Position numbers and translations under genes: made by a program. The notes beneath the pieces are model-generated. The model saw only the letters and a program-made list of their open reading frames with translations, searched no databases and was not told the DNA's origin. Shown here piece after piece: positions 34,916 to 54,437 of a stretch of 64,000 nt of DNA. Origin of the DNA: Desmonostoc geniculatum HA4340-LM1 (GTDB lineage: Bacteria; Cyanobacteriota; Cyanobacteriia; Cyanobacteriales; Nostocaceae); NCBI GenBank assembly GCA_019359545.1, contig JAHHHB010000001.1, positions 62,001 to 126,000 on the forward strand, read 5' to 3'. The stretch's first letter is position 1, and every line of letters begins with the position of its first letter.

Positions 34916-35045
34916 CAAGTAAAAGGGACTGGGGACTGGGGACTGGGGATTGGGTAATCATGTGAAAAATTATGTCCGGGATTTTGGATCGCATAAACCC
35001 AGATTCACCAAGGCTATTCCCAATCCAAAATCTAAAATCTAAAAT
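34916..35045. repeat. Heptamer repeats between copA and the small membrane gene
   Basis: GGGGACT units (about 34925-34955) and, further on, TCTAAAA/TCCAAAA units (about 35020-35050). The second block runs into the copA stop, so the last residues of CopA (SILDFRF) are encoded by repeat sequence. Confidence 0.7.
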
Positions 35046-37374
35046 CCAAAATTGAGAGAGTTTTTGGTTTAAAGTTACGCAATCTTAGGGCATTGCTCAC
35101 AACAGAAACCGAAGAAAGAGCCATTGCGGCTCCGGCGATAATGGGATTGAGTAACCAACCGAAGATCGGGAAGAGAATTCCAGCTGCAATGGGAATGCCG
35201 ATAATGTTATAGATAAAAGCAAAAAAGAGATTTTGCCTGATATTGTTGATAGTAGCGCGACTAAGTTGAATAGCCGTCACAATTCCTTGCAAATCTCCAG
35301 AAATTAGCGTGATATCGCTAGCAGCGATCGCCACATCTGTTCCTGTACCAATGGCAATTCCCACATCAGCCTGTGCTAGTGCTGGGGCATCATTTATGCC
35401 ATCGCCTACCATTGCTACAATTTGGGGAGTGGGGAGTGGGGAGTGGGGAGTGGGAAGAATTTTTCCTAGTCCCCAGTCCCTAGTCCCCAGTCCCTCTTTT
35501 TGCAGAGATTGGATTATCGCCGCCTTTTGATCTGGACGGACTTCGGCAAATACTCGTTTGATGCCAACTTGATGAGCGATCGCTTCTGCTGTTTGTTGAT
35601 TATCTCCGGTAAGCATTACTACTTCTAAACCCAACTTTTGTAGTGTTTTTACTACTGCTGCGGATGAAGGTTTAAGAGCATCGGCAATACCCATTACCGC
35701 TTGGATTTCGCCATCTACGGCTATGAAAATAACTGTTTTCCCAGCAGCTTCCCATGCATTTTTATACTGCTCAATAACCGTGGTATTAATTTCGAGTTCT
35801 GTTAACCAGCGTTGAGTACCAATTTGCACCAGGCGATCGCTAACAATTGCTTGGACACCACTACCCGGAATTGCTTGAAAGTTCTTAGCTTCTGTTAAAC
35901 TCACCTCTTGAGACTCGGCATACCTGACAACAGCCGAGGCTAAAGGATGTTCAGAATTCCTTTCTACCGTTGCTGCTAACTGTAAAAGTTGGAGTTCGTT
36001 ACCGTTGGCTGTGCCGTTGACAGTTACAAAATCTGTAACCGTAGGTTTACCCACAGTTAAAGTACCGGTTTTATCTAAAACGATGGTTTGGATTTTGTGT
36101 GCCAGTTCTAAGCTGTCTGCGCCCTTAATCAAAATCCCATTTTCTGCACCTTTGCCGGTTCCCACCATTACAGAAGTCGGGGTAGCTAAACCCAAAGCAC
36201 AAGGACAAGCGATAATTAGTACACCTACCGTTGTCATTGTTGCTAAGGTGAGGTTGCCTGTGAAGTTAAACCAAATCACAAAAGTGGCGATCGCAATGGC
36301 AATCACAGCTGGTACAAACCATCCCGTCACTCGATCTGCCAACCGCTGAATTGGTGCTTTAGAACCTTGTGCTTGTTGCACCAATTTGACGATTTGAGCC
36401 AAAAACGTATCTTTTCCGACTCGTGTCGCCCGAAACTGAAACGCACCCGCACCGTTTATTGTCGCCCCAATCACCTCATCTGGTGGTTGCTTTTTGACTG
36501 GCAAACTTTCACCAGTCACCATCGCTTCATCTACTGTGGAAACCCCTGCAATCACTTCCCCATCTACTGGAATTTTTTCGCCAGGGCGTACCAAAATCAC
36601 ATCGTTGATTTTGACTTCGGCGATGGGAACATCAATTTCTACACGATCACGGATGACTCTAGCATCTCTGGCTTGGAGTCCCATGAGTTTGCGGATAGCT
36701 TCAGAAGTCTGTCCCTTGGCGCGATTTTCCAATAATCGCCCCAGCAAAATTAAGGTAATGACAATGGCAGCAACTTCATAATAAACATGAGGAATCAAGC
36801 CCTGAGCAATAAAAAATCCAGGGAAAACGGTAATAAACAAAGAATATAGATAGGCTGCACTTGTACCCAAAGCAATCAGCGTGTCCATCGTCGCCGTATG
36901 ACGCTTCAAAGCTTTCCAGCCATTGCGGTAAAAAGATCCACCACACCAAAACACGACTGGTGTTGTCAACACTAGCTGTACCCAAGGATTCTCCAGGAAA
37001 CTGGGAATCAAGGGCAAATTTAGCCCAGTCATCATCGGTAGCGATCCTAAAAATAGGAAACTGCTGATTACACCTCCCACCGTTACTTTGAGGAAGAGTT
37101 CGCGTTGTTTTGCTTGTCTACTTGCTGTCTCTGCATCATTTTCTTCAGGGAGCATTTCTTCACAGAGTGAGTCGGAAGAGTAACCAGCAGCCGCGATCGC
37201 ACCTTGGATTTGTTCTAAATTAGTGAGAGAGCGATCGTAATTGATGGCGGCTTGTTCAGCTCCAAAGTTAACGTTGCAGTCAATCACCCCGCGAACCGAG
37301 CGAATCGCCTTTTCGACGTTGTTGGCACAAGCGGCACAACTCATGCCTCGAAGTTTGAGTGTGAGAGTATCCAT
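35032..37374 (-). CDS. Copper-translocating P1B-type ATPase
   Basis: Heavy-metal P-type ATPase of 780 residues in the CopA/PacS/CtaA class, pumping Cu(I). The N-terminal HMA domain has [14 protein letters not shown]. Core motifs are TGESLPV, the intramembrane CPC in [18 protein letters not shown] with the phosphorylated Asp, SEHPLA and [10 protein letters not shown]. The frame opens upstream at 37488, but those 38 codons only translate CCCATGC-type repeats; the ATG at 37374 ([13 protein letters not shown]) is the true start. An in-frame insertion of about 20 residues ([20 protein letters not shown]), encoded by heptamer repeat DNA, sits just before IVAMVGDG, between the phosphorylation and hinge motifs. 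The C-terminus also runs into repeat DNA. Confidence 0.9.
35420..35497. repeat. Heptamer repeat inside the copper ATPase gene
   Basis: GGGGAGT units (35425-35453) and CCCTAGT/CCCCAGT units (35465-35492) form an opposed repeat pair inside the coding region, in frame. It is the same low-complexity family seen in the spacers at 34925 and 37375-37569. Confidence 0.8.
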
Positions 37375-37569
37375 ACTGGGGATTGGGGATTGGGGATTGG
37401 GGATTGGGCATGGGGCATGGGGCATGGGGCATAGGGCATTGGAAGAGGCAGAGGGGCAGAAGGGCAGAGGGGAAAGAACAAGGCACATTGAACTCTCCTC
37501 TGCTCCCCTGCTCCCCTACCTCCCCTACCTCCCCTGCCTCCCCACTCCCCACTCCCCACTCCCCTTTCT
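37375..37569. repeat. Repeat-filled spacer upstream of copA
   Basis: GGGGATT units (37378-37406), GGGGCAT units (37408-37435), then GAGGGGCAGAAG-type and CTCCCCT/ACTCCCC units. No gene; open frames on both strands here are pure repeat translation. Confidence 0.85.
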
Positions 37570-38890: not shown

Positions 38891-40489
38891 CTAATTCGTG
38901 ATTTGGACTAATTTCATCATTCCTTGATCCTCATGGTCTAGAATGTGACAGTGCAAGACGAATTTGCCATCAAATTCTGTATAACGGCTCTTAACCGTTT
39001 CAGGAGAGCCGTTTCTCACCAGCAATGTATCCCGCCAAATATTCTCATTGTTGCCATTAGGATCTTTACGTGTGTACTGGAAGGGATTGACATGAATATG
39101 AAAAGGATGATTGGCAAGTTGCGAGCTCAGATTCCACTCATCAGCAGTGTTAAGTGTTAACGAGATGGGATTGGGATCATTCGGATTAAATGACTCGCCA
39201 TTAACCGTGAACTTAGCAGGCTGAGTATTAATGTCAATATTAAACACTACCTGCTGGTGACCAGTTATGTCCCCGATCTCTGGGGGTGAATCCTGCTGTT
39301 TTACTGCCAATAACTCGGAATCGTCTGGCAATTTCATATCCACAGGCTCACCTTCCACTACCACTTTAGCGAGGTACTGTCCAGTCTCTCCAACTGCAAG
39401 GAGCGATCGCTGCGGACTAGTTGGAAGATCTACGAGATAGTATGTTCCGGGAAATTTGTCGGCTTTTACTAGCACATCACTGCGATAGCCAGGTTGAAGT
39501 TCGAGTTCGTTCCACGAGTCTTTCTTACCTAGAGTAATACCATCGACTGCGATTTCATGAAGCGGAATGTTCTGGTGGTTTGGGTATTGCAGTCCCAGCT
39601 CAATTGTATCTCGGATACCAGCGTGAATCAAACGCCAACGTTGCACTTCTCCTGGACGCATTCTGATCGTTGGGTAAACCTGACCATTGATGGTAGTCTG
39701 GCGTCCTGATACAGACCACTTGGAGTTTCCATTGGAGTCAACTCCGAATGCATCGTAGCTTTCTAAGTTTCCGGTTGTGTCATAGAATATCTGCTGGAAG
39801 ACAAATGTTTTTTCCTCTGCGTTCTTGATCTCAGGTATCTCATCAAGTCCACCCTCAACGATTAAAGCTCCCGCCATTCCACTGGAAACTTGTATAGCAG
39901 TCGATCCATGTTGATGGGCATGATACCAATGAGTACCGGCTGGGTGGTCTGATGGTAATTCAATTTCAATCGGGTAGGAATTCTGGGGTTCCATTTCCCT
40001 CAGTACATTGTCACTAATACCACTGGGCGAAACGTGAAATCCGTGGGTATGGAAATTAGTAGTGTTAAAGCGGTGTGGAGTGTTATTGATGTCTGCCTGT
40101 CGTGATAATGGGTCTGGTGGGAGACTGTTGATCAAAGTAATGTTCATGCGATCGCTTGGCTTAACACGCAGGGTCGGCCCCACTAAGTTACCGTTGTAGG
40201 AACGAAGATGGACTGGGCATCCAGCGATTATGTTATCGCCGTATTTAACCTCTAATTCAGTTGACACCACGCCATCTCTAGATGAAATTTCGGTTGGATT
40301 CTGAAAGTCAGCACCGCCATATTTTTGAATATCGATCGGCTTTTCTGCACAAGAAGGATTCGGTTCAGAAGCATTATCTGCCTGCTGTGCAATCTCTAGC
40401 GAAGCTGCGTAAGAACTGGAAAACGGTGTAATTAAAAATACTATTATTGTAGCAATTACACAGAGAATATTGAAGATGCATTTTCGCAT
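38891..40489 (-). CDS. Periplasmic multicopper oxidase (laccase/CotA-like)
   Basis: A 532-residue multicopper oxidase with an N-terminal signal (MRKCIFNILCVIATIIVFLI, cleavage near SYAAS). All four copper-binding blocks are present: NFHTHGFHV, HWYHAHQHGS, HPFHIHVNPF and HCHILDHEDQGMM, the last giving the type 1 Cys/His and the axial Met region. It would oxidise Cu(I), phenolics or metal ions with reduction of oxygen to water. The frame extends upstream to 40543; the ATG at 40489 places the signal peptide correctly. Context with copA, a copper chaperone and a hemocyanin-like gene suggests copper handling or phenol oxidation. Confidence 0.9.
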   Translation of the reverse strand: MRKCIFNILCVIATIIVFLITPFSSSYAASLEIAQQADNASEPNPSCAEKPIDIQKYGGADFQNPTEISSRDGVVSTELEVKYGDNIIAGCPVHLRSYNGNLVGPTLRVKPSDRMNITLINSLPPDPLSRQADINNTPHRFNTTNFHTHGFHVSPSGISDNVLREMEPQNSYPIEIELPSDHPAGTHWYHAHQHGSTAIQVSSGMAGALIVEGGLDEIPEIKNAEEKTFVFQQIFYDTTGNLESYDAFGVDSNGNSKWSVSGRQTTINGQVYPTIRMRPGEVQRWRLIHAGIRDTIELGLQYPNHQNIPLHEIAVDGITLGKKDSWNELELQPGYRSDVLVKADKFPGTYYLVDLPTSPQRSLLAVGETGQYLAKVVVEGEPVDMKLPDDSELLAVKQQDSPPEIGDITGHQQVVFNIDINTQPAKFTVNGESFNPNDPNPISLTLNTADEWNLSSQLANHPFHIHVNPFQYTRKDPNGNNENIWRDTLLVRNGSPETVKSRYTEFDGKFVLHCHILDHEDQGMMKLVQITN

Positions 40490-41058
40490 TATTAGGACTC
40501 GTTTCTGATTAGAGATGTTGAACATGGATTTATCAAGTTGCAAGCTGAAAAATATCTATCTTTAGCTAGATAGCAAATAACTTTGACAACCTGTAGTAGT
40601 AATTCTATGACTGAATTGGGATTAATTGTAATACCCAAGACAGTCTTTTAACACTACTTTATTTTTCTCGAAAAAGAAAAATAAATAGCTAATTGCAATT
40701 AAATAAAAAAGTCTAGACGGCGAATTATAAATAGCTTGTCAAATTATTGCTGTTGAGTCATTTTGTCATGTCTTAGTCTAAATTACAGTAATAGTTTTGA
40801 GCGCCCTGCTTACTTTTTTAAAATTATCTCTAGCAAAATAAAAATAGAGCAATTCTAATTCAATAAAATTAAAAAGCTTTTATGTAAAAATTCATATTAA
40901 TAACGTGAAATTTTCATTAAAATATCCTCATATTTTAGGAAAATATAAACAAATATTTCTGTTTTAGAAAATTTAGAAATATGAGAGACAAAAAAAGTTA
41001 TTAATGTGATAGCTGTTATTACAGCAGTACTTTTTTTTACAATTGGAGAAAATAATGT
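40490..41058. other. AT-rich divergent regulatory spacer
   Basis: It lies between the minus-strand multicopper oxidase and the plus-strand hemocyanin-like cluster, so it should contain promoters for both. It is very AT-rich with no repeat or coding signal recognised. No copper-regulator box was identified. Confidence 0.4.
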
Positions 41059-41493
41059 ATGGCTTTTAATCCAGATATAGTTGTGGGCAATTGGACATAT
41101 CGCAGCTTCTTAAATAATCCAGGCTATATTGAGGACGTTCAGAATTTAGAGGAATTCAAGGAGCTGTTTCTATTTGGCGAAGGCGATATTGAGATAGTTG
41201 AATCACCTTTCGGTAGGTTGGGAGGGAACGTTCGCTTTGGTGATGAATATATTTTGGATCTCAAAGGGTCTATCGGATATGGGAATCCCTTCAATCTGAC
41301 TTTTCAAGGCGTAGGAAGATCGGATACACAAGCAAAAGGTTGGATATATGACTATGTTGGCTACCTTGTGCCTGCTTGGCCTAATGGTATCGATGAGAAA
41401 GAAGCAATTGTGGGTTCAGTGATTAGAACTGTTCCACATGATGGCAGACCTGCTGGTGTGGTTGCTTCGTTCATTGCTGTTAAAAAGAGTTAA
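41059..41493 (+). CDS. Small beta-rich protein, unknown, first gene of hemocyanin-like cluster
   Basis: A 144-residue protein without signal peptide. It looks like a small beta barrel: VVGNWTYRSFLNNP, LFGEGDIEIVESPFGRLGGN, DEYILDLKGSIGYGNPFNLTF, WIYDYVGYLVPAWPNG, AIVGSVIRTVPHDGRPAGV. No catalytic or metal motif stands out. Ribosome site GGAGA lies about 10 bases before the ATG. It is followed after 114 bases by the hemocyanin N-domain-like gene on the same strand and may act with it. I do not recognise the family; lipocalin-like folding is only an impression. Confidence 0.65.
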   Translation: MAFNPDIVVGNWTYRSFLNNPGYIEDVQNLEEFKELFLFGEGDIEIVESPFGRLGGNVRFGDEYILDLKGSIGYGNPFNLTFQGVGRSDTQAKGWIYDYVGYLVPAWPNGIDEKEAIVGSVIRTVPHDGRPAGVVASFIAVKKS

Positions 41494-41607: not shown

Positions 41608-42003
41608 ATGGCACAGATTGACGAGATCCAAACCAAAGTCAACGATATCCTGTCAGGTCAGAGCAAGGGTCAGCATCAGGACACACAGCCATCGCCACGC
41701 CACTTCAGCTCGTATGTGAATGAGGACGTAGAAAAAGCTACTGCCTTAGCTTCTAGACTGATGCAAATTGCAGAGAAAAAAGGTGGCGAAGCAGGTCTAG
41801 CTGATGCAATTGAGGAAACTGAGAGAATAATCGGTACAGAAATTCCCGGACTAGTGCAGTATGCTCTCAAGCTCTTTATCACTCATTATCCAGAAGCACG
41901 AGCCAAGTTAAAACTTAGGCCTCTTGAGCAACGCCAACCGAACATCGTGCGTCCATCAAATCCACCGAAAGACCAACAATCTAAGCAAGAGGAATCAAAA
42001 TGA
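41608..42003 (+). CDS. Stand-alone hemocyanin N-domain-like helical protein
   Basis: A 131-residue, mostly helical protein. It is clearly homologous to residues 1-130 of the next protein: IQTKVNDILSG, HFSSYVNEDVEKATALASRL, GGEAGLADAIEETE, EIPGLVQYALKLFITHYPEA and PLEQRQPNIV all have near-identical partners there. These segments also resemble the end of the arthropod hemocyanin N domain (PxLFQYALSVAxxHRPD). It has no copper ligands of its own. The stop overlaps the next start by four bases (ATGA), so both are translated together. Possible roles are a subunit, an inhibitor or a chaperone of the copper protein (inference). A GGAGG ribosome site precedes the ATG. Confidence 0.75.
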   Translation: MAQIDEIQTKVNDILSGQSKGQHQDTQPSPRHFSSYVNEDVEKATALASRLMQIAEKKGGEAGLADAIEETERIIGTEIPGLVQYALKLFITHYPEARAKLKLRPLEQRQPNIVRPSNPPKDQQSKQEESK

Positions 42004-44030
42004 CACAGCCTAGCGATTTACAAACAAAAGTGAATGATATTTTATCAGGTCGTGGCAAGGACAAGGGGGTTTCTGTGCCAAGTCCTTTGGAAACAGCGGC
42101 TTTGCAACGCCATTTCAGCCCTTTTGTGAATGAGGATCTAGAAAGAGCAGTTGCTTTAGCTTCCGAACTGATGAGGATTGCTGAAAATAAGGGTGGTGAG
42201 GCAGGAATAGTTAGTGCTTTGGAGGAAATTGAGCAAAAAAGTGCGACCGAGATTCCAGGACTGGTGCAGTATGCAGTCAAACTATTTATCACTCACTACC
42301 CGCAAGCACGCACCTTGATTAAAGTTAAGCCGCTTGAGGAGCGCCAGCCCAACCTCATAGCTCCATCGAAGGCGCTAAAGTTTACTGGTAAAAAACCAGA
42401 GACAACCGCAGAGATTCAAGAAGCTGGTTCTACACCACCTGAAGACAAACTCGAATTCTGGCGAGAAGATCCACTGCTCAATGAACACCACGAACACTGG
42501 CACATAGTCTATCCTACTAGTGGTCGCCCCAGTCCCAGTGGTAGTTATGAACTAGGCGATCGCCACGGCGAACTCTTTGCTTACATGCACGAGCAAATGA
42601 TCGCTCGCTACGACGCTGAACGCCTCGCTGTTGGTCTGCAACGGGTAGACCGCTTTTCTAACTACCGAGCAACCATTCCTCAGGGTTACAACCCAGGAGA
42701 TTTGAAACTTCGCCAAGAAGATGGGACGTGGTATCTGTTCCGTGCCCGGCCAGCAGGGGCGACGATTAGCGATCTGACAGGTGATTTTGCTGGGCGTCCT
42801 GGTGCTAAACTCAGCAACCAAGAAGCATTCCGCGATCGCTTATTTGAAGCTGCCACAAGTGGGATATTCCAAGAACTGCCCTCTCAGGAGCCAGTCAAAA
42901 TTGATAATCTCGGCAATACAGAAGAGGCAAATATTAACTCTATTGACTATTACGGGTCGGGCAATCCCAACAACAATAAAATCTACGGCAATCATCACAA
43001 TGATGGTCACATCCACCTCATGCTGTTTGATAATGTCTTACCCTTCGGCGTAATGGCAGACACAGCTACAGCTGTGCGAGATCCGATTTTCTGGCGCTGG
43101 CACAAGCATATTGATTCCATCTTCCACACTTGGAAAGAGCAACAATCGCCTCATGATTTTTCCGACGCACCACCAGTCAAAATTCGCAAGTCTACTACAA
43201 ATGGAAAGGCCACAAGTCTCGACATCATCCTCTGTCGCCAGGACGGACTCCCGCCTGAGTTCAACCCAGAGCAAATCGCATCTGAGGCATTTGGTTATTC
43301 AGATAATCCAGAGCAGAACAACTGGAACGGTGACTTTGCAAACACGACGGTAAAACTTTCTAGTGGCGAAACAGTGACCACAACGGATGAACTGCTCACA
43401 CAGATGGAACAACGGCAGATTCAACTATATGATGATAATGACTCTCCCCAAACAGTGACTATCGATTACTTGTCCCACGACGACTTTTACTATTTCATCC
43501 GGGTCGAAAATAGCTCGGATCAAATTCAAAAGTTAACTGTGCGGATCTTTCTTGCACCAGAGACCGAGGTCGAGGATTGGAGTAGCTGGATTGAGATGGA
43601 TAAGTTTCTGTATCGGTTGAATGGTTCAGAACGCGCCGTTATCTTCCGTCGTGCGGATCTCTCATCGGTGATTCGCAAACCTGCACTCCGACCACAGGAT
43701 CTTGCTGACCCAAATTCATCCTTAAGAGACCAACAACCTTGGTGTGATTGTGGTTGGCCTTATACCATGCTGCTACCCCGTGGTACAAACGAAGGTATGG
43801 AATTCCGGCTGTTCGTCATGTTTTCCAGTGGAGACGACTTAAATTTGCCCGAACAACCTGAATGTTGTACCTCCATTAGCTACTGCGGTCTACAGGACAC
43901 AGATTATCCCGACAAGCGCGAGATGGGCTATCCTTTCAACCGAACCTTTCCCAACGGGATATTATCTGCGATCGCCCAGTACGATAATATGACTTCAAGG
44001 ACGATCGAGATCCGTTGCAAGAACCTTTAG
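42000..44030 (+). CDS. Hemocyanin/prophenoloxidase-like type 3 copper protein
   Basis: A 676-residue protein with the full three-domain layout of arthropod hemocyanins and prophenoloxidases. N domain (1-130) is helical. The copper domain (about 145-385) has CuA ligands His164 and His168 in EHHEHWHIVYP and His197 in GELFAYMHEQMIARYDAERL. CuB ligands are His333 and His337 in HHNDGHIHL and His368 in RDPIFWRWHKHID. The C domain (about 430-676) has CDCGWPYTMLLPRGT, FRLFVMFSS and YCGLQDTDYPDKREMGYPF, the conserved Cys-rich signature. Ordinary bacterial tyrosinases lack the N and C domains. No signal peptide, so cytosolic. It may bind oxygen or oxidise phenols. Coupled to the preceding gene by an ATGA overlap. 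Confidence 0.88.
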   Translation: MTQPSDLQTKVNDILSGRGKDKGVSVPSPLETAALQRHFSPFVNEDLERAVALASELMRIAENKGGEAGIVSALEEIEQKSATEIPGLVQYAVKLFITHYPQARTLIKVKPLEERQPNLIAPSKALKFTGKKPETTAEIQEAGSTPPEDKLEFWREDPLLNEHHEHWHIVYPTSGRPSPSGSYELGDRHGELFAYMHEQMIARYDAERLAVGLQRVDRFSNYRATIPQGYNPGDLKLRQEDGTWYLFRARPAGATISDLTGDFAGRPGAKLSNQEAFRDRLFEAATSGIFQELPSQEPVKIDNLGNTEEANINSIDYYGSGNPNNNKIYGNHHNDGHIHLMLFDNVLPFGVMADTATAVRDPIFWRWHKHIDSIFHTWKEQQSPHDFSDAPPVKIRKSTTNGKATSLDIILCRQDGLPPEFNPEQIASEAFGYSDNPEQNNWNGDFANTTVKLSSGETVTTTDELLTQMEQRQIQLYDDNDSPQTVTIDYLSHDDFYYFIRVENSSDQIQKLTVRIFLAPETEVEDWSSWIEMDKFLYRLNGSERAVIFRRADLSSVIRKPALRPQDLADPNSSLRDQQPWCDCGWPYTMLLPRGTNEGMEFRLFVMFSSGDDLNLPEQPECCTSISYCGLQDTDYPDKREMGYPFNRTFPNGILSAIAQYDNMTSRTIEIRCKNL

Positions 44031-44732: not shown

Positions 44733-47700
44733 CTAAAATCGATTTTCATACTCGACTAAGAATAAACTTTCATTATCCAAATTAGTTGAGCCGCGTACAA
44801 GAATTTCATCATTGAGGCGGTAAAGCACATTGTAACGGAAGGACTCATTGGTAGAAAAAGCCCGCGATAAAGAAACTGATAAGTTGCGATTGACATTAAA
44901 CACACCCTCTGCTGACAAATCAAGAACTGAAGATCGTCTTGATTCTTCATTGGTGGTAGGGGTAGGAAATATGCGAAATTCGTTAAAACCAACAGCCTGT
45001 CCGATCGCAGTTATGGTTCCTTGCAGACTACCTAAAATAGTAGAACTTGCGAAATTTGTCAATCCTTGGGTGATGTCTCCTGGTTGACTCAAAGAATTCA
45101 AAATCGAACCACCCAACAAAGCAACGATTTCTCCTCTACTCCGGCCAGGTTCACTCGTCAATTCCAGGTTATTTGCTAATTCACTAGCTGGCCCTGTGGC
45201 CCTTGCTTGGACGCGAACGGTACGTAAAGTACCAAAGTTATTCACAGAAGCATCACTGATTTCCGCAGATAAAGGTGATTCCAAAATGCGATCGCTCGTT
45301 GCCGATGCTTCAGGTACAATTGCCACTAGTCGGACATCGAGGATAGGGTCAAGTCCAAGACTAGGAGTAAACCGCGCAGTGTGTTCGTAGCCCCGCGCCA
45401 AGGTAAACTCTGTTGTAAATAAGCTCAGCCGTCCTCCTGTTAAACGGATGAGTCCTTGGGGCAGGGGTTTGGCTAAGGTACCATTGATGGTCAAGTCACC
45501 TTTGGCATCAAAGCTGAGTAGAGGTTGACTCAACGCTGCTCCGCCTGGTACAAAGCCAAGTAGAGGCTCAGTTGTAACTCGAACATCGTCGCCCAAAATC
45601 AACCGTAAATCTGCAAATTCTACAGGTAAGTTGGGTCTAGTTGGGGCGCTAGGGTTAGTCTGTGGTGTTGTTACTGTATTATTAGTGTTAGTCTCTGGTG
45701 TGTTGAGAGTAATAGAAGTAGGCTCTGATGTAGTTGCTGCTGTTGAGGTATCAGTGGCGGATTTTCCGACAATGACCTGACCATTACTCAGTTGAATTTC
45801 TCCACCAATTATCGGTTTTAGTGCTGTTCCCCGAATTACGGCGTTACCGCTGACGCCACCTTCATATAATGCTGGAACTTTAAAATCTAATTGTTTTTCT
45901 ATTGATACAGTGAGAGGATTAGATGCACCTTGCTCAGGAGTAAGAATCGGCAAGATTCCTGATGCAGCGACTAGCCCTTGATTATAATTGCCTTGAATAT
46001 TCTCTACATTTATTGTATCACCATTAAATAGTAACGTTCCTGTGACATTTGTTAGGGGTTCCGATAAAGCTTGAGCGGTAAAAGTAGCATTGTTAACTCT
46101 CGCAGTTCCATTGATAATTGGCTGATTTAAAGTACCTTGAACGTTGACATCTACTTCCCCTTCACCATTTACCCAACTAACTTGATTGTTAGTAAATACG
46201 TTTAATAATGCCAAGCCTTCATTATTTACCTTGGCGTTAACGCTGATTTGATTATTATCTGGTTTTGCTGCTACAAAAGGTAAAGAAGCGGGTATGCTAC
46301 CTGTAATTGCAATGGGTTGTGTTCCTGTCAATAGCAAAGTACTATCAAAATTCACGCGAGCATTGTTGTAATCAAATTTCACCTGGCCTGTTTGTATGGG
46401 TTGCTGATTTAAAGTTGCGTTAGCCAGGGATGCCGAGCCGTTAACTCTAGGGTCTTTTAAACTCCCTTGCAAATTAGCCGTAGCATTGAGTTGACCAGTA
46501 ACATTTACAGGATATTTTTCAATAAACGGCTGTAAAAGTGACAGCGGTAAACTTGCTATATTTAAATTTCCAGATAGTTCTTCAGTTCCTAACTGTCCGG
46601 AAAAAGCAATTAATCCTTGATTTATGCCTACACTCAATGGTGAAAGTGTAACTACACCATCTGCAAAATTGCCTCTAGCAGTAACTTGATTAATGGCGTA
46701 TTCACCCCATTTCCAATTATCACCTTGAAAATTAAAGTCAGCATTCAAGCCAGATTTTAACGAACCACTAGCTGTAATTGCCCCACTCAAAGCACCTGTT
46801 AATTCTGCAAGGGTCGGTAAAGCTGCTGGTTTTTGGGTATCTGCTTGCTGTTGTTCTGCTAAAGATGTTTCAATTTTAGAAAAATACTCTAACTGGGTTT
46901 TTAAATCTGCATTTGGTAAACTAACGGGTGTGGTGTTAAGTGCTTCTGCTCCCGCTAAAGTTGGAGATTCCAAACCACTACCAAGGTCTTGAAAATCGAA
47001 GATATTAAATGCTTGTAAGAGTTGTTCGATTCGAGTTTGGTTTAAATTAGCTTGTACTTGAAATTTGGGGTCATTTCCGGTTTGCAAATTGCCACTTAAG
47101 GCTATATTGCTGTTTCCTAACCGCAATTGACCATTAGTTAAACTAGCAGCGCCATCGGCATAGTTGATATTACCGCGAAATTCGTCTGCGGAGACTCTGG
47201 CAACACGAGGGTTAATTATCCCTACGTCTCCACTCACTGCATAATTATTCAGATTAACAACTAAATTTCCCGATAATTGCCCTGCCAAAGGTTTCAACCT
47301 ATTATCAGGTAAAAAGCTGCCAACCAGCGCTATAGGGAACTGTTGGGCGTTGATAATCAAGTTATCACCCTGGGTTCTCCCTGTGGTAACTGCCGCACCG
47401 CGCTTGACTAAAAATGACGTTGGGCGATAATCTGCACCCAGGTTTACTGCTATTCTGTCTTGTCTACCTGCAAGTTGCAATCTTGCTCCTTGTCCTGCTT
47501 GAAAATTCACATCTCCAGTTAAAATTGGGTCGAATGCCAAATTACTGACATTAAAATTCCGCAGCCGGATATTGCCAGTAGCCTGAGGAGTGCTTGGAGT
47601 GCCTGTAATTTGTCCATTAAAATCTAGTAACCCTGCTAGTGCTAAATCTCCGGGAACTTGAAAACCTGTATTTTTGAGGTTGAAATTCTGGGCTAGGACA

Positions 47701-50258
47701 TTCAAATTAAAGCTAGCAATCTCAGGTGTACCCGTTTGGGGTAATTGTACAGCGATCGCACCACTAGCGATCGCTCCTGCCGTAGTTGCCCGTTCAACTA
47801 TAATTTGCTGTCCATTCCATTGAAATTGCGCCGTCAGCGGTTGCGCTAACTGTGCTAACTGTGAAGCCCGAATTTGTCCAGCGGCGCGAATATCTGCAAG
47901 CTGGAAGGATTCTGTTGTACCTGTCAACTTAACATTACTACTCAGCCGTCCCCGCAGTTGTGGTGAGAACCGATTGAGTTGAATTTGGGAAGCGTTAGCA
48001 ACTGCTTGCCAGCGACCAGCATCCAGGTTAATATTCCTGAGGCTAAGCGTACCCCCTGCCACATTCAAGTTTGCTCGTCCTGTGGCTTGAATGGTTGAGG
48101 GTTGAAAAGAAGCGGTGGTTCCTGACAAATTCAACGTCGCATTGCTGAGAACTCCCTGAAATTCGGGTGGTATCTGCTGGAGTTGAATTTGGGAAGCGTT
48201 AGCAACTGCTTGCCAGCGACCAGCATCCAGGTTAATATTCCTGAGGCTAAGCGTACCCCCTGCCACATTCAAGTTTGCTCGTCCTGTGGCTTGAATGGTT
48301 GAGGGTTGAAAAGAAGCAGTGCTTCCTGACAAATTCAACGCCGCATTGCTGAGAACTCCCTGGAACTGCTGCGGTATTTGCTGGAAACGATTTAGTTGAA
48401 AATTTTGGGCGTTGACAAAAGCTTGCCAGCGTTGTTGTGCAACTCGACCGCTAGCTGTGATTCTACCACCTGCGACGTTGAAAACAGCACTTGGCAATAG
48501 GATATTCTGCCCTTGTTGAGCAATTACAACTTCTCCCGTAGTGGGATAGCTAGCAGTAGGCGCTTGTAGTTGGACTACTGTCCGCAGATTGCCGAGAGTA
48601 CCGGAAATTCTGGCATTTGCCGATATCGTACCAATTTTGATGGCGGATGAAGTATCGTTTGTATTGGCAATTGCATCTCCTGGTAAATTTTGGGCTTGAA
48701 TGTTAAACGAGACGTTGCCTTGGGGTGCCAGCTGAATTTGACCATTCCCCAGGATTTGCCCGCCAGCTGGTGGCTGCATTTGAAGGCTGGAAACATTAAG
48801 TGCTAAGGGTTGTTTGCCCAATGAGCCAGTAATTTCCGCCTTTGCTGAGACATTGCCAACGTTAATTGGAGGAGTAAAGCCATAGCTGCGTGCCAGTATA
48901 TCTCCTGAAATACTGTCAGCTATAATATTAAATTTTACTCTATCATTCAGTGTAGCTTGACCGCTTCCAGTAATTTCACCGCCAGATGCAGGGACTAATT
49001 TCAGATTCGACACAGCAATTTGAGATGTCTTTTTAGATACGCTCAATCGAAAATCAGTGTTGACGCTTTTGAATTGAACGCGGTCAATTTTAACCGGCTT
49101 GGTGTTGCTTGCGGTACCGCTGAGAACAGGTTCCTGGAGTGGACCCTGTAACTTAATATTTGCTTGCACTTCACCGATAGCTACCACTGGCGAACTGATT
49201 TTCAGCGTGTCTAAGAGATTTTTTGCACTGACTGGTTTTATCTGGGCTGAGATATTAAAACCTGTTTGGGTATTAACTGCTCCATTTGCTATAATTGGGA
49301 CTTTGCCAAAGTTTGTAGTTAAATTATTTAAGGCGATCGCTTGACCTTGAAATATTAATCTGCCATTAGAATTAGCAAACTTTTGGGGAATATTTTCAAT
49401 TTGAGCAGTAACTTGATTAGGAGTAGCTGTACCAGTAATAGCTATTTGCGAAGGATTTGATGGAATTGCAACTCCTAAATCAGCGTCTATTTGTCCTGCT
49501 TGCAAAACAATTGGTAACTCAATTAATCGACTAACATCAGATGCTTGTAAAGCTTGTGCTACAACTTTGAGATTAGTTTGTTGTGTTTTCAGTTGTGTTT
49601 CACCAGAGATTTTCACAGCACCTCCTCTAGTGAGTTGACCATTTATTTCGTAACCAATTCCTTTATTGTCAGGTAAAAATTTAGCAATACCACCGAATTG
49701 ATTTATGACTACAGAACCTTTTGGTTTAGTTGGTGCGGAGGCTGGTGATAACTCTACATTTCCATCCACAATCTGAAGTGTTTGTAACTCAGTTTGAATA
49801 GCACCCGCGCCTTCTGTACTCTTAACTTCAGCCGTAACCCAGCGGCCATCTCGATCTTGTTGGATGTAAACATTGGGCTGGACTAATGTAACATTTAATG
49901 GTAGTTTTCTAGTTAAAATAACTTGTAAAAGCGAAAACTCTACATCTACAGCTTTTGCTGTCAATTGGTCTGCATCTGTAGCAGTTGCGGGTATGGACAG
50001 CGAAGCAAATCTCAAACTAGAAAGTGAAAAACGTTCAACTCTCCCTAATTTTATGGGACGCCCAAGTAATTGTTCAAGATTTTGCTGTACTAAAGGTGCT
50101 AAATCTTTATATACATAGTTTCTAGCCCACCAAACACCAGCTGCAATTCCTCCAAGCAAAATGATTCCTACAACCAAACTGCTACGTTTTAAAAGCACGA
50201 GATTTAAACGAGGATTCCTTGGTTCGTGGTCATTTCCTGGATTTGGGGAGCGAGTCAT
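44733..50258 (-). CDS. tamB: TamB-like translocation/assembly module protein (DUF490)
   Basis: A giant 1841-residue protein with one N-terminal membrane helix (LVVGIILLGGIAAGVWWA) and a long beta-rich periplasmic body of repeating strands, ending in the TamB/DUF490 C-terminal domain (VDVNVQGTLNQPIINGTARV, GVSGNAVIRGTALKPIIGGE, FTLARGYEHTARFTP, LSISLSRAF-like end, FLVEYENRF). TamB-type proteins bridge inner and outer envelope and move lipids or assemble outer-membrane proteins with an Omp85 partner. No Omp85 gene adjoins here. About residues 633-765 contain a 68-residue unit duplicated almost perfectly (DNA period 204 bp). A Thr/Asn/Pro-rich linker lies near residues 1510-1550. Confidence 0.88.
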   Translation of the reverse strand: MTRSPNPGNDHEPRNPRLNLVLLKRSSLVVGIILLGGIAAGVWWARNYVYKDLAPLVQQNLEQLLGRPIKLGRVERFSLSSLRFASLSIPATATDADQLTAKAVDVEFSLLQVILTRKLPLNVTLVQPNVYIQQDRDGRWVTAEVKSTEGAGAIQTELQTLQIVDGNVELSPASAPTKPKGSVVINQFGGIAKFLPDNKGIGYEINGQLTRGGAVKISGETQLKTQQTNLKVVAQALQASDVSRLIELPIVLQAGQIDADLGVAIPSNPSQIAITGTATPNQVTAQIENIPQKFANSNGRLIFQGQAIALNNLTTNFGKVPIIANGAVNTQTGFNISAQIKPVSAKNLLDTLKISSPVVAIGEVQANIKLQGPLQEPVLSGTASNTKPVKIDRVQFKSVNTDFRLSVSKKTSQIAVSNLKLVPASGGEITGSGQATLNDRVKFNIIADSISGDILARSYGFTPPINVGNVSAKAEITGSLGKQPLALNVSSLQMQPPAGGQILGNGQIQLAPQGNVSFNIQAQNLPGDAIANTNDTSSAIKIGTISANARISGTLGNLRTVVQLQAPTASYPTTGEVVIAQQGQNILLPSAVFNVAGGRITASGRVAQQRWQAFVNAQNFQLNRFQQIPQQFQGVLSNAALNLSGSTASFQPSTIQATGRANLNVAGGTLSLRNINLDAGRWQAVANASQIQLQQIPPEFQGVLSNATLNLSGTTASFQPSTIQATGRANLNVAGGTLSLRNINLDAGRWQAVANASQIQLNRFSPQLRGRLSSNVKLTGTTESFQLADIRAAGQIRASQLAQLAQPLTAQFQWNGQQIIVERATTAGAIASGAIAVQLPQTGTPEIASFNLNVLAQNFNLKNTGFQVPGDLALAGLLDFNGQITGTPSTPQATGNIRLRNFNVSNLAFDPILTGDVNFQAGQGARLQLAGRQDRIAVNLGADYRPTSFLVKRGAAVTTGRTQGDNLIINAQQFPIALVGSFLPDNRLKPLAGQLSGNLVVNLNNYAVSGDVGIINPRVARVSADEFRGNINYADGAASLTNGQLRLGNSNIALSGNLQTGNDPKFQVQANLNQTRIEQLLQAFNIFDFQDLGSGLESPTLAGAEALNTTPVSLPNADLKTQLEYFSKIETSLAEQQQADTQKPAALPTLAELTGALSGAITASGSLKSGLNADFNFQGDNWKWGEYAINQVTARGNFADGVVTLSPLSVGINQGLIAFSGQLGTEELSGNLNIASLPLSLLQPFIEKYPVNVTGQLNATANLQGSLKDPRVNGSASLANATLNQQPIQTGQVKFDYNNARVNFDSTLLLTGTQPIAITGSIPASLPFVAAKPDNNQISVNAKVNNEGLALLNVFTNNQVSWVNGEGEVDVNVQGTLNQPIINGTARVNNATFTAQALSEPLTNVTGTLLFNGDTINVENIQGNYNQGLVAASGILPILTPEQGASNPLTVSIEKQLDFKVPALYEGGVSGNAVIRGTALKPIIGGEIQLSNGQVIVGKSATDTSTAATTSEPTSITLNTPETNTNNTVTTPQTNPSAPTRPNLPVEFADLRLILGDDVRVTTEPLLGFVPGGAALSQPLLSFDAKGDLTINGTLAKPLPQGLIRLTGGRLSLFTTEFTLARGYEHTARFTPSLGLDPILDVRLVAIVPEASATSDRILESPLSAEISDASVNNFGTLRTVRVQARATGPASELANNLELTSEPGRSRGEIVALLGGSILNSLSQPGDITQGLTNFASSTILGSLQGTITAIGQAVGFNEFRIFPTPTTNEESRRSSVLDLSAEGVFNVNRNLSVSLSRAFSTNESFRYNVLYRLNDEILVRGSTNLDNESLFLVEYENRF
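47977..48384. repeat. 204-bp tandem duplication within tamB
   Basis: The unit starting AGTTGAATTTGGGAAGCGTT at 47977 recurs at 48181 with very few base changes, giving two 68-residue copies. A weaker older relative follows. Period is a multiple of three so the frame is kept. Confidence 0.88.
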
Positions 50259-51022: not shown

Positions 51023-52066
51023 ATGACACTAAATACTTGTTTGGTTAGCAATTATCAATCAGAAGAAGTCTGGTTACCTTTTTCAGAAAGCATTTTAGAG
51101 TGGGATATTGATTTTCATGAATTAATGCTTGGCGATCGGATTAGAATGGTAGCTTATAAAAATGCCATCCAAGAATTAGTCAAGCCGGGAATGGTAGTTT
51201 TAGACCTTGGTACTGGAACAGGAATTTTAGGATTGTGGGCTTTGCAAGCAGGTGCAAAACATTTGTATGCCATTGATGTTAATAAAGACATACTTGCCAT
51301 CGCCAGCCAAAATTTTGAACAAAATGGTTTTTCTGGAAAATTTGATGTTTTTCATGGTATGTCCTATGACATAAACTTGCCAACACGAGTTGATTTGATT
51401 ATTTCAGAAATTATGGGAAATATCGCAGACAACGAAGATTTTGTCCCAATTTTAACAGATGCACACAACCGTTTTCTCAAACAATCAGGAATCATGTTGC
51501 CGTCTAGAGTGTGCAGTCAGTTAGTACCAATCAACTCACTCAAAGCTCATCAGCAAGTTCAATCTAAAAAAGTCAAAAGAATAAATGCAAACTACAGCAT
51601 AGAAAAACTCTTGGAAAAATTAGCAACTAAAAGTCCGTTTGATACTTATTACGATGTAATTATTCCAGATACAAGTTACTTGAGTGCTCCTCAGGTAGCC
51701 AAAGAATTTAAAATGGATGGAAACGATCGAGCTGTTTATGAAACTACTCTCAATTTTACTGTAGAAGTAGATGGTATTTTTACAGGATTCAAAGGAAGCT
51801 TTGCTGCTAGTCTTTCTGACTCAGTTACTTTAGATATATCAGGTTCTGATATTGCGTCTCATACCACATCAGACAGTTGGAAACACTGTTATTTACCTGT
51901 ACAAACTCCAGTGGAAGTGAAGCATGGAGATGAAATTTCTTTAGTTTTTAGTCGTTCTTATCCGCAACAGAGAGATTCCCTGTTTCGCCAATGTTATAAG
52001 TGGAACGGAACTATTAAACGTGAGCGTAAAATCATCAATGCTTTTTATCAAGGTATGGAAAGTTAA
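51023..52066 (+). CDS. PRMT-like SAM-dependent methyltransferase
   Basis: A 347-residue class I methyltransferase resembling protein arginine methyltransferases. HELMLGDRIRMVAYKNAI (32-49) matches the PRMT N-terminal helix HEEMLxDxxRTxxYxxAI. SAM motif I is VLDLGTGTGILGLWA (59-73). SEIMGNIADNEDF (128-140) matches the double-E loop (Glu129, Glu138), which binds the guanidinium of arginine. A C-terminal beta-barrel-like part follows. In natural-product pathways such enzymes methylate free arginine or guanidines (SznE type). First gene of a plus-strand cluster; the next starts 111 bases later. Confidence 0.82.
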   Translation: MTLNTCLVSNYQSEEVWLPFSESILEWDIDFHELMLGDRIRMVAYKNAIQELVKPGMVVLDLGTGTGILGLWALQAGAKHLYAIDVNKDILAIASQNFEQNGFSGKFDVFHGMSYDINLPTRVDLIISEIMGNIADNEDFVPILTDAHNRFLKQSGIMLPSRVCSQLVPINSLKAHQQVQSKKVKRINANYSIEKLLEKLATKSPFDTYYDVIIPDTSYLSAPQVAKEFKMDGNDRAVYETTLNFTVEVDGIFTGFKGSFAASLSDSVTLDISGSDIASHTTSDSWKHCYLPVQTPVEVKHGDEISLVFSRSYPQQRDSLFRQCYKWNGTIKRERKIINAFYQGMES

Positions 52067-52177
52067 GACTGAAAAAATTTAGCGATCGCTGAAACTAAAT
52101 TAAGCTTTAATAGATAACAACAACAGTTATCTATTAAAAAAAATATTGTGAACTTTCATTAATAAAGGAAATTATTT

Positions 52178-52705
52178 GTGAATATCTCTCAATCAGAATT
52201 AATTGACTCATCGTTATTTTTAGGAATGCATAGTGTTAATGAAGAAACTAGAATCGTATGTAAAAATTATTTTGTAGAGCGTTTACAGATAACAGTAAGC
52301 ATGAGCTTAGAACATGTAGGAGGCTGCGACAATATTATTTGGCTGTATCCACGAGAATTACAAGACGCTTACTACCCCTTCATGGATACACTACATACAA
52401 TTATGAATATCAAAAGGCTTCCCTATGAAGAAAACGATATTAAAATAGCCCTAACTGACTCAGAGTTACAAGTTTTACCTATGTATGATAGGTTATTAAT
52501 TGGATTTGCAAAAAACCGCAAAAAAGTCGTCTATACAGTGAACAAAAAGCTTATCGATAGCGGTAAATTACCAGTTTTCAATCCCCCTATTTCTGAAGAA
52601 AAAAGTTTTCCTGAATCATTAGAAAAATTGTACCAAGTATCTTTGGAATTAAAAATCCCAGAAATTGAACTTACTAGCGATTATTATAACAATTCTGACA
52701 GCTAG
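52178..52705 (+). CDS. PIN-like/DUF6190-like protein
   Basis: A 175-residue protein beginning at a GTG with an AAAGGA ribosome site. Key segments: IDSSLFLGMHSVNEETRIVC, MSLEHVGGCDNIIWLY, QDAYYPFMDTLHTIM and VLPMYDRLLIGFAKNRKK. The spread of acidic residues resembles a PIN-type fold, and from memory the sequence fits DUF6190, a family seen in actinobacterial biosynthetic clusters. No biochemical role is known to me. Gap to the next gene is 39 bases, so an operon is likely. Confidence 0.6.
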   Translation: MNISQSELIDSSLFLGMHSVNEETRIVCKNYFVERLQITVSMSLEHVGGCDNIIWLYPRELQDAYYPFMDTLHTIMNIKRLPYEENDIKIALTDSELQVLPMYDRLLIGFAKNRKKVVYTVNKKLIDSGKLPVFNPPISEEKSFPESLEKLYQVSLELKIPEIELTSDYYNNSDS

Positions 52706-52744
52706 TGAAACATATCTCATATTTCAATATTAAGGAAATGCAAC

Positions 52745-53851
52745 ATGAAAAATGGTAAAGAGCTATTTCTATATAACCGCAGCATTTTAGATGCAGAAGC
52801 TTATAAGAAGCTGTTGGAAATTGAAAATTCATGGATAGATGAAGTTTTTGATTCTATTCAAAGCAAAACAAAAATTATTAAATCAAGAGCAGAGTTTAAA
52901 GAAGCATTCAATAATTTGCTTTTGGAAGAACGTAATGCATCCCCAGATGATTACGACTACATATCAACTCAGATAAGTCTCAAGGAATTTCAGGTAATTG
53001 TCCAAGAATTTGCTATTGATGGGTTAACTGAAGCCCAATCATTTTTATCCATCATTAGTAGGCTTCCATTAACAGCCCAAATGCCTATGCTCAGAGTATT
53101 AATTGATGAATTTGGTTGTGGTAACTATGAATATTCACATTCTCATCTCTACGATAAACTACTATGCGAATTAGGAATGCCTACCAGTATTGAAAATTAT
53201 TTAGATATTCTCAATCCTGAAAGCTACGCTTTTTTAAATATATTCTACTGGTTGACAATGAGGGCACCCTATGTTGAATATTTTTTAGGAGCTTTAGCAT
53301 ACTTAGAAAGTATGATTCCTTTTACCTTTAAATGCTTTGCCGATGCGTGTCAAAGACTAAATATTACGAATAGTAAGTACTATACAGAACATATCCACAT
53401 TGACAATTTTCACGCCAAGGATATGTTACGTACATTATGGGAAGTAGAGTCTGCTGTTGGTCTTGACTATACAAAAGTATGGACAGGTATTCAAATAGCA
53501 AGTTTAATTATTGCACAAGCTTTTGATGCAGCTCTTAAAAAAGCAAAAACAGAAATTATTGAGACTACAGAAATTAACAAACGAAATCATAGTTCAACTT
53601 CGGAATTTATTTCTGCTAATGTAGATAATTATTGTGAATATTTCCCCATTGACCTAAAAGATAAAAAATATCTACTTCCTAAAAAATGTCCTCACAGAGA
53701 AGGCAGAATGTATTGTGGTTCTATCAATGAAAATAGCGGGACTATTATTTGTCCTCTGCACTTTTCTAAATTTGATATTGCTACAGGGCAAGTCTTATCA
53801 GGTCCTACATCTGAACACCTTGATATTATTGAGGTAAGTAGCCAGGTGTAA
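52745..53851 (+). CDS. Heme-oxygenase-like diiron protein fused to a Rieske [2Fe-2S] domain
   Basis: A 368-residue two-domain protein. Residues about 70-265 are helical and resemble the heme-oxygenase-like diiron oxygenase (HDO) superfamily; candidate metal ligands are in QEFAIDGLTEAQ, DEFGCGNYEYSHSHLY, LAYLESMIP and EHIHIDNFHAKD. Residues about 298-360 are a Rieske domain with Cys315, His317, Cys336 and His339 in CPHREG and CPLHFSKFD, at canonical C-x-H-x18-C-x2-H spacing. The Rieske part would feed electrons to the diiron site. HDO enzymes oxidise amines or cleave C-C bonds in natural-product pathways; SznF carries a fused cupin instead. Third gene of the cluster. Confidence 0.78.
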   Translation: MKNGKELFLYNRSILDAEAYKKLLEIENSWIDEVFDSIQSKTKIIKSRAEFKEAFNNLLLEERNASPDDYDYISTQISLKEFQVIVQEFAIDGLTEAQSFLSIISRLPLTAQMPMLRVLIDEFGCGNYEYSHSHLYDKLLCELGMPTSIENYLDILNPESYAFLNIFYWLTMRAPYVEYFLGALAYLESMIPFTFKCFADACQRLNITNSKYYTEHIHIDNFHAKDMLRTLWEVESAVGLDYTKVWTGIQIASLIIAQAFDAALKKAKTEIIETTEINKRNHSSTSEFISANVDNYCEYFPIDLKDKKYLLPKKCPHREGRMYCGSINENSGTIICPLHFSKFDIATGQVLSGPTSEHLDIIEVSSQV

Positions 53852-54437
53852 ATACAGCAAAATTCAGCACTAACACAAGCTTTATACTTGGCTTTGAGAG
53901 TGAAGTTGTGTACTTCATAAATTTGAAATACCTTGTAAATTAAAGTTTGTAGTCAGGATTTTAATCCTGATAATTCTGAATCAGCTATGAATCTCTGACT
54001 ACAAACCGACTATCTCAATTTCTCACGAATTATTTAGGACTGCTATATCTATTTGAAAGTAGAGTTATGGCGGTTTCCATTCAGATGCGATACAACATAG
54101 CGAGGGGTAGTGCCGTGCCCCTACAGGTGTATCTTATTAGGTTAGGAAAGGCTATAAGAAAATTTATTTTAAATAATAAATCTGTTGTTTACATAACTTT
54201 TATAGATATGTAAATAACAGATTATTTTGTCATGTTTCAAAATTTTATTAATAAAATTTTGAAACATGACAAAATATTTTTTAGATTGCATAAATTTCTA
54301 ATTAACGCTGATAACTATATACAAGCTATTAATGAAGTTTTTTTAGCGTTCAATTAAGCTAAAAAATGTATTGATAAACCTAAATAACTGGAATTAATTG
54401 CTGAAAATATCTTCTAAATTCAACAACCTTTAATCGT
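53852..54437. other. 586-base break in the cluster, with inverted repeats
   Basis: Contents: an inverted repeat TTTGTAGTCA (about 53945-53954) / TGACTACAAA (about 53995-54004) enclosing GGATTTTAATCC; a GGGGTAG/GCCCCTAC stem at about 54104-54123; and the 54-bp palindrome at 54223-54276. No gene seen. The AT-rich end should hold the promoter for the next gene. Confidence 0.6.
54223..54276. repeat. 54-bp perfect palindrome
   Basis: Two 27-base arms meet without a loop at TTTTATT|AATAAAA; each arm includes TTTTGTCATGTTTCAAAA. It is AT-rich and lies between the HDO-Rieske gene and the PLP gene. Could be a terminator, a regulator-binding site or a mobile-element relic. Confidence 0.85.

Follow-up and report, generated by a model that had tools for sequence, protein, structure and literature searches.

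A hemocyanin/prophenoloxidase-class protein in the cyanobacterium Desmonostoc geniculatum: a probable latent phenol oxidase with rare relatives in eight bacterial phyla

Arthropod prophenoloxidases (PPOs), such as Manduca PPO1/2 (3hhs) and Anopheles PPO8 (AgPPO8, 4yzw), and arthropod hemocyanins, such as those of Limulus (1lla/1oxy) and scorpion (3ixv), are built on a common three-domain plan. PPOs are latent phenol oxidases that proteolysis activates, while respiratory hemocyanins are hexamers with reversible O2 binding. In the cited parts of a study on AgPPO8, the placeholder of the Limulus protein is F49, and E364 of AgPPO8 is described by the authors as necessary for activity (PMC4700666). 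A published survey defines a cytosolic, Phe-plugged beta-subclass and, in the passages cited here, assigns its origin to the stem of the unikont eukaryotes, with the alpha-subclass alone reported from the bacteria and archaea that it examined (PMC3658974). The fungal protein AsqI (5yy2), of the same superfamily, is a hemocyanin-like zinc protein that carries out a ring contraction in the biosynthesis of an alkaloid. According to the cited text, it has lost site B (His346, Leu350, Tyr387) (PMC6053404). Bacterial alpha-subclass tyrosinases (PF00264) can be accompanied by small proteins, such as the Streptomyces caddie (MelC1/ORF378), which is encoded together with the oxidase and of which a tyrosine is proposed to enter the active site. 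The cited passages state that Tyr98 of the caddie is inserted into the tyrosinase site and that quinone formation accompanies the release of the enzyme (PMC6312201). In this report, a hemocyanin/PPO-class gene in the cyanobacterium Desmonostoc geniculatum HA4340-LM1 is described and compared with these systems. The gene is located in a stretch of 64,000 nucleotides (contig JAHHHB010000001.1, positions 62,001 to 126,000 of the forward strand), here called the window, in which all coordinates are given.

The gene (42000..44030, forward strand, ATG start) encodes a protein of 676 amino acids with matches in Pfam and the PDB. It contains all the motifs quoted in an earlier sequence-only reading of this DNA, which had claimed a full-length protein of the arthropod type. 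The copper domain (42426..43124) matches Pfam Hemocyanin_M over residues 143-375 (E 2.4e-36), and the C-terminal Ig-like domain (residues 462-672, 43383..44015) matches Hemocyanin_C (E 1.8e-32), both far above the curated cut-offs. The match to Pfam Tyrosinase is weaker (E 1.1e-9), and the NCBIfam MelC2 cut-off was missed by the protein (15.8 bits vs 450). While alpha-subclass tyrosinases match Pfam Tyrosinase, the Hemocyanin_M and Hemocyanin_C matches put the window enzyme in a different subclass, although the probable reaction is the same. In the PDB (phmmer), scorpion hemocyanin (3ixv, 1.8e-74) and Limulus hemocyanin (4.8e-70) rank above the insect PPOs (Manduca PPO, 2.7e-66), and these rank above crustacean proteins and fungal AsqI (6.6e-38). 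The N-terminal domain (residues 1-142, 42000..42425) is more divergent, and the Pfam Hemocyanin_N threshold was not reached, with one match among 16 bacterial N-domain sequences (E 0.25). However, a profile built from these 16 sequences (14 belonging to full-length proteins and two stand-alone), searched against 177,635 PDB sequences, had arthropod hemocyanins and PPOs as all nine of its best matches (E 1.1e-5 to 5.5e-4). The profile thus finds the arthropod N-domains, and therefore the three-domain plan is present in the enzyme. The claim of a complete arthropod-type architecture in a cyanobacterium was upheld in this way, with the Pfam prediction correct for the M and C profiles but not for the N profile. 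Judged from these matches, the membership of the enzyme in the hemocyanin/PPO class can be regarded as secure.

The residues of the active site point to the same class. In the Hemocyanin_M alignment, the CuA ligands are His164, His168 and His197 (first codon bases 42489, 42501 and 42588) and the CuB ligands His333, His337 and His368 (42996, 43008 and 43101), all on the forward strand. These six columns are constant in the 15 bacterial full-length proteins analysed, including that of the window, and in six arthropod rows. The same is true for Phe39, for the placeholder Phe42 (codon 42123-42125), which is aligned with Limulus Phe49, for the catalytic Glu309 (first codon base 42924) and for Cys582, Cys584, Cys623 and Cys629 of the C-terminal domain. 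Counted along the printed chain, Phe42 corresponds to the AgPPO8 placeholder F99 and Glu309 to AgPPO8 E364. The six copper histidines and the C-domain signature named by the sequence-only reading are thereby borne out. The bacterial and arthropod proteins have these features in common, whereas at position 165, between the first two CuA ligands, tryptophan is replaced by glutamate in 15/15 bacterial proteins. The bacterial proteins also form a clan of their own with a divergent N-domain, and the window adds a detached N-domain and a partner gene to the arthropod arrangement. None of the 15 bacterial proteins has a strongly hydrophobic N-terminus, as judged by a crude hydropathy check of the first 55 residues, which for one fusion protein (locus L013) began at the hemocyanin part. 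The highest 15-residue hydropathy mean ranged from 0.07 to 1.24, compared to 2.95 for a multicopper oxidase in the window. Without an obvious export signal, the enzyme is probably cytosolic.

The protein is most probably a latent phenol oxidase that belongs to the arthropod hemocyanin/PPO class and is probably located in the cytosol, a reading to which we assign a probability of about 0.68. The main reason for preferring a phenol oxidase is a small partner protein, because this companion is common to the enzyme and to ordinary tyrosinases. The partner (144 amino acids, 41059..41493, forward strand) has no match in Pfam, and a partner profile has none in the PDB. It is encoded first in a same-strand run of three genes, followed by the stand-alone N-domain and, as the last gene, the enzyme. 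In Petrachloros, a copy of the partner (45% identical) lies immediately upstream of the hemocyanin gene. The partner was found in 2/242 genomes of the class, that of the window and that of Petrachloros; the same two are the hemocyanin carriers among 388 sampled genomes. In the stretch from Cyanosarcina no partner gene was seen, the search there being confined to that stretch. Outside the cyanobacteria, tblastn with the partner gave 124 places in 107 plasmid records, which belong to Sinorhizobium, Rhizobium, Mesorhizobium and Burkholderia, and nine of these places were examined as loci. A tyrosinase is present in the gene run of the partner in six of the nine (by Pfam in L032, L033 and L034, by annotation in L038, L039 and L040), and in four of the six it adjoins the partner directly. 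In addition, a multicopper oxidase is annotated near the partner in L032, L034, L038, L039 and L041. A protein of Mesorhizobium onobrychidis (L042:3998-5539), encoded beside a LodA-family oxidase, joins the partner to a divergent type-3-copper-like domain unrecognised by Pfam. For this domain the match to the bacterial hemocyanin profile (85%, E 6e-6) is stronger than that to a tyrosinase profile (34%, E 4e-4). The partner is therefore proposed to accompany type-3 copper phenol oxidases in general, which would give the window enzyme and the alpha-subclass tyrosinases a small partner protein in common.

Between the partner and the enzyme, a stand-alone N-domain of 131 amino acids is encoded (41608..42003, forward strand), which overlaps the enzyme start by four bases, matches the family profile (E 5.8e-21) and is 60% identical to the N-domain of the enzyme. 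A single-sequence PDB search with it found no relative. The dN/dS between both N-domains is 0.25-0.32, and therefore the stand-alone copy is apparently not a decaying one. A second stand-alone N-domain is present in a Chloroflexota bin (L005, 6640-7005, E 2.7e-9), where it begins 13 bases past the enzyme stop, so that such domains occur in 2/15 genomes or records. In a tree, the window copy and the enzyme of the window form a group (95/83), while the L005 copy is nearest to Brevibacillus and L005, unsupported; the two look like separate duplications. At the placeholder column, both stand-alone N-domains have a tyrosine (Tyr36 in the window, 41713-41715), vs phenylalanine in 15/15 full-length proteins. 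By analogy with the Streptomyces caddie, the stand-alone N-domain may be a trans-acting copper caddie or temporary inhibitor, which is tentative and somewhat less probable than not. A difference from the Streptomyces caddie is that it duplicates the N-domain of the enzyme itself, and the proposed likeness is one of functional analogy.

In the proposed mechanism, the dicopper centre would bind O2 and oxidize mono- or diphenols to quinones. The N-domain of the enzyme would keep Phe42 over the copper site, resulting in latency until the domain moves or is cut. More tentatively, the stand-alone N-domain, which would be synthesized shortly before the enzyme, might dock at the same place in trans with Tyr36 over the copper site and might depart once its tyrosine is oxidized, as in the Streptomyces caddie. 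Several observations weigh against a latent oxidase of this kind. The authors of the AgPPO8 study argue, in the cited part, that activity need not require the placeholder to leave (PMC4700666). AgPPO8 R244, the salt-bridge partner of the catalytic glutamate, is by eye replaced by histidine or glutamine in the 15 bacterial rows, and at position 334, after the first CuB histidine, 8/15 bacterial rows have glycine for asparagine, while the window protein keeps the asparagine. The tyrosine-for-phenylalanine pattern consists of two sequences and a common substitution. In two of the nine partner loci (L037 and L041) no tyrosinase was seen. The conserved residues, Glu309 included, are common to true hemocyanins, so that by themselves they would not separate an oxidase from an oxygen carrier.

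A carrier is what the sequence-only reading had considered besides a phenol-oxidizing protein, in either case cytosolic. The probable cytosolic location has stood, and the gene context favors the phenol oxidase. A functional hemocyanin that binds or buffers oxygen in the cytosol would agree with the closest PDB relatives, which are the oxygen carriers of scorpion and Limulus, and with the placeholder phenylalanine and copper ligands. It is nevertheless improbable, as the partner accompanies ordinary tyrosinases elsewhere, the glutamate needed for phenol oxidation is retained (though hemocyanins retain it too) and the distribution is very patchy. Still less probable is a metal enzyme other than an oxidase, as in AsqI. 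AsqI is related to the enzyme at the level given above, and possible biosynthetic or redox genes lie near some relatives (L006 and L012), but site B has been lost in AsqI, whereas both sites are kept in the bacterial proteins, with the six histidines present in 15/15.

The existence of a prokaryotic member, as stated by the sequence-only reading, was confirmed, but the window protein is not a lone case. One pattern scan through 84,980 species genomes returned 34 matches, and a relative is encoded at 13 of them; as the scan requires shared short peptides, this count is a lower bound. Rhizobium indicum was added from two plasmid records, one with the gene annotated whole and the other with the gene in pieces, and the NCBI label of the Rhizobium copy is 'tyrosinase family protein'. 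In one of the two R. indicum strains (L027:8001-9461), a hemocyanin-class gene is partly covered by annotated open reading frames (ORFs) and looks disrupted. The 15 full-length proteins come from eight phyla: Cyanobacteriota (3), Acidobacteriota (1), Chloroflexota (2), Bacillota (1), Bacteroidota (1), Pseudomonadota (5), Planctomycetota (1) and Actinomycetota (1), with the phylum labels less sure for L005, L006, L008, L009, L011, L013 and L014, which are labelled metagenome-assembled. Within the class, carriers are 2/388 sampled genomes (the window genome and Petrachloros), and full-length proteins were found in 2/198 relatives of the window genome. No further full-length match was found in 298 Pseudomonadota, 198 Acidobacteriota, 300 Chloroflexota and 293 Planctomycetota genomes, searches that score just the first few candidates per genome; the Chloroflexota sample contained one 53-residue C-terminal remnant. 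Among the relatives of the window genome, weak matches with E 2.8e-6 to 8.8e-4 lie mainly near CuB; they are probably ordinary tyrosinases and were not counted. One scan of viral contigs gave 17 pattern matches and no relatives, and phage records gave no match. The family is very rare and has a patchy distribution. In the open-access literature searched, which does not extend to subscription papers and preprints, no paper was found whose title or abstract opening describes a bacterial hemocyanin/PPO-class protein.

A tree of the 15 bacterial and six arthropod proteins (697 columns) splits the two groups by one branch with support 100/100, recovered in each of the 200 bootstrap trees examined. 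The window protein has that of the acidobacterial Acidicapsa as its sister (100/100), rather than one of the two other cyanobacterial proteins. Its identity is 34-53% to other bacterial proteins and 32-34% to arthropod proteins, with Acidicapsa as the nearest row (53-54%), and the bacterial members differ mutually about as much as from the arthropod proteins. The sister relation to Acidicapsa suggests that the gene was transferred between bacterial phyla. Being unrooted, without an outgroup and without fungal (AsqI), amoebozoan and crustacean rows, the tree gives no direction of descent between kingdoms. Contamination from an arthropod, or recent gene transfer from one, would account for the likeness to arthropod proteins and the patchy distribution. 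Its probability is practically negligible, given the branch between bacteria and arthropods, the nearest row and the location of the gene within a run of closely spaced genes in a 215-kb contig. The host assembly (7.36 Mb) is 99.87% complete and 0.02% contaminated, and the enzyme is single copy. On these comparisons a recent arthropod origin can be excluded, as the sequence-only reading had expected; tree and gene setting refute a recent arthropod source as distinct from an ancient transfer from another eukaryote. The GC content of the enzyme gene is 0.479, vs 0.409 for the window, and was dropped as a sign of recent transfer because neighbor genes are also raised (0.43-0.46).

Peptidase and defence genes near some relatives bring in a further explanation, a PPO activated by proteolysis in a bacterial defence (conflict) locus. 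Within 6 kb, a peptidase with a Pfam match above cut-off is present at 5/15 loci (L004, L009, L010, L013 and L026), which do not include the window; as 30 hand-chosen neighbors were scanned, none from L014 or L015, this is a lower bound. A subtilase lies upstream in L004 and in the same run in L026. In a metagenome-assembled Chloroflexota genome (L013:7-3477), an S8 subtilase is fused N-terminally to the hemocyanin-class protein and is the sole S8 match in the 1.9-Mb bin. The run in L026 (Rhizobium) also includes an LmuA-like MBL protein (8.5e-44), with Shedu SduA nearby (4.6e-138). L009 has Trypsin_2 with an endonuclease and TIR, L010 a caspase C14 peptidase and L011 a sub-threshold CHAT match, and HExxH motifs occur in Pfam-unassigned neighbors at L005, L010, L011 and L012. 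The subtilases of L004 and L026 are kin (33%, 2e-65), and so are the MBL proteins of L010 and L026 (23%, 2e-14). Loci with S8 within 6 kb were seen three times vs 0.28 expected (P about 0.003), and Endonuclease_NS at two loci vs 0.026 (P about 0.0003). The expectations were derived from counts in the 15 genomes or records, with split S8 hits merged by hand, and the tests were chosen after the loci were seen. Trypsin_2 was not enriched (one locus vs 0.37 expected). In the cited parts of Kaur et al., Endonuclease_NS together with trypsin, and sometimes subtilisin, is a conflict system; nowhere does that paper use the word hemocyanin or phenoloxidase (PMC7159879). The combination of Endonuclease_NS with a trypsin-like peptidase (System 3 of Kaur et al.) is present in L009; in L006, Endonuclease_NS is present and the trypsin-like part was seen by eye only, while the window genome has no Endonuclease_NS. 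None of the 14 window neighbors scanned is a peptidase, a scan that left out an ORF of 1841 amino acids at 44733-50258. Taken together, activation by a protease in a defence locus is unlikely, though a serious contender. It overlaps with the reading as a phenol oxidase, and the probabilities of the readings are not meant to sum to one. A protease cascade is a possible lead for part of the family and implies no claim on the window gene run.

Two further genes of the window lie upstream of the three-gene run. A multicopper oxidase with a hydrophobic N-terminus (38891..40543, reverse strand, Pfam) is divergent from the run and is 35-36% identical to those beside partner and tyrosinase in L034 and L039; its association with the operon is possible. 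A heavy-metal P-type ATPase with an HMA domain (35032..37488, reverse strand) was also assigned by Pfam. At 51023-55721, a run encodes a methyltransferase with a PRMT5-like C-terminal domain, DUF6190, a haem-oxygenase-like plus Rieske protein and a class-V aminotransferase. This set is unusual for a cyanobacterium and is perhaps a small biosynthetic or modification cluster. Among the relatives, the genes that come after the enzyme gene in Sandaracinobacteroides (L012:7881-14107) encode a flavin amine oxidase and a beta-propeller/periplasmic-binding-type protein. In Cyanosarcina (L006:3218-9986), PAP2/vanadium-peroxidase-like, ferritin-like (PF12902) and BNR-repeat genes are located directly upstream of the enzyme on the same strand.

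These rare relatives in eight phyla suggest that the hemocyanin/PPO family is bacterial too. The relevance to the origin of the family, as foreseen by the sequence-only reading, is thus real, since the bacterial set does not fit the unikont-stem origin of the beta-subclass as written in the cited passages of the survey (PMC3658974). It makes that origin of the cytosolic subclass testable and supplies bacterial proteins with which the change from oxidase to oxygen carrier can be studied. The Phe plug would predate the arthropods. If the detached N-domain is indeed a caddie, two separately described routes to latency in type-3 copper enzymes would be joined, and if the protease link is true, another animal immune module would have a bacterial counterpart. 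In its widest and rather doubtful form, the finding may represent a bacterial prophenoloxidase system homologous to that of arthropods. Such a system would have a Phe-plugged latent oxidase, which some lineages would have linked, or even fused, to an activating protease within defence loci. Here it would be controlled by a detached Tyr-plug N-domain, and the animal and fungal family would be descended from, or of common origin with, a bacterial defence enzyme.

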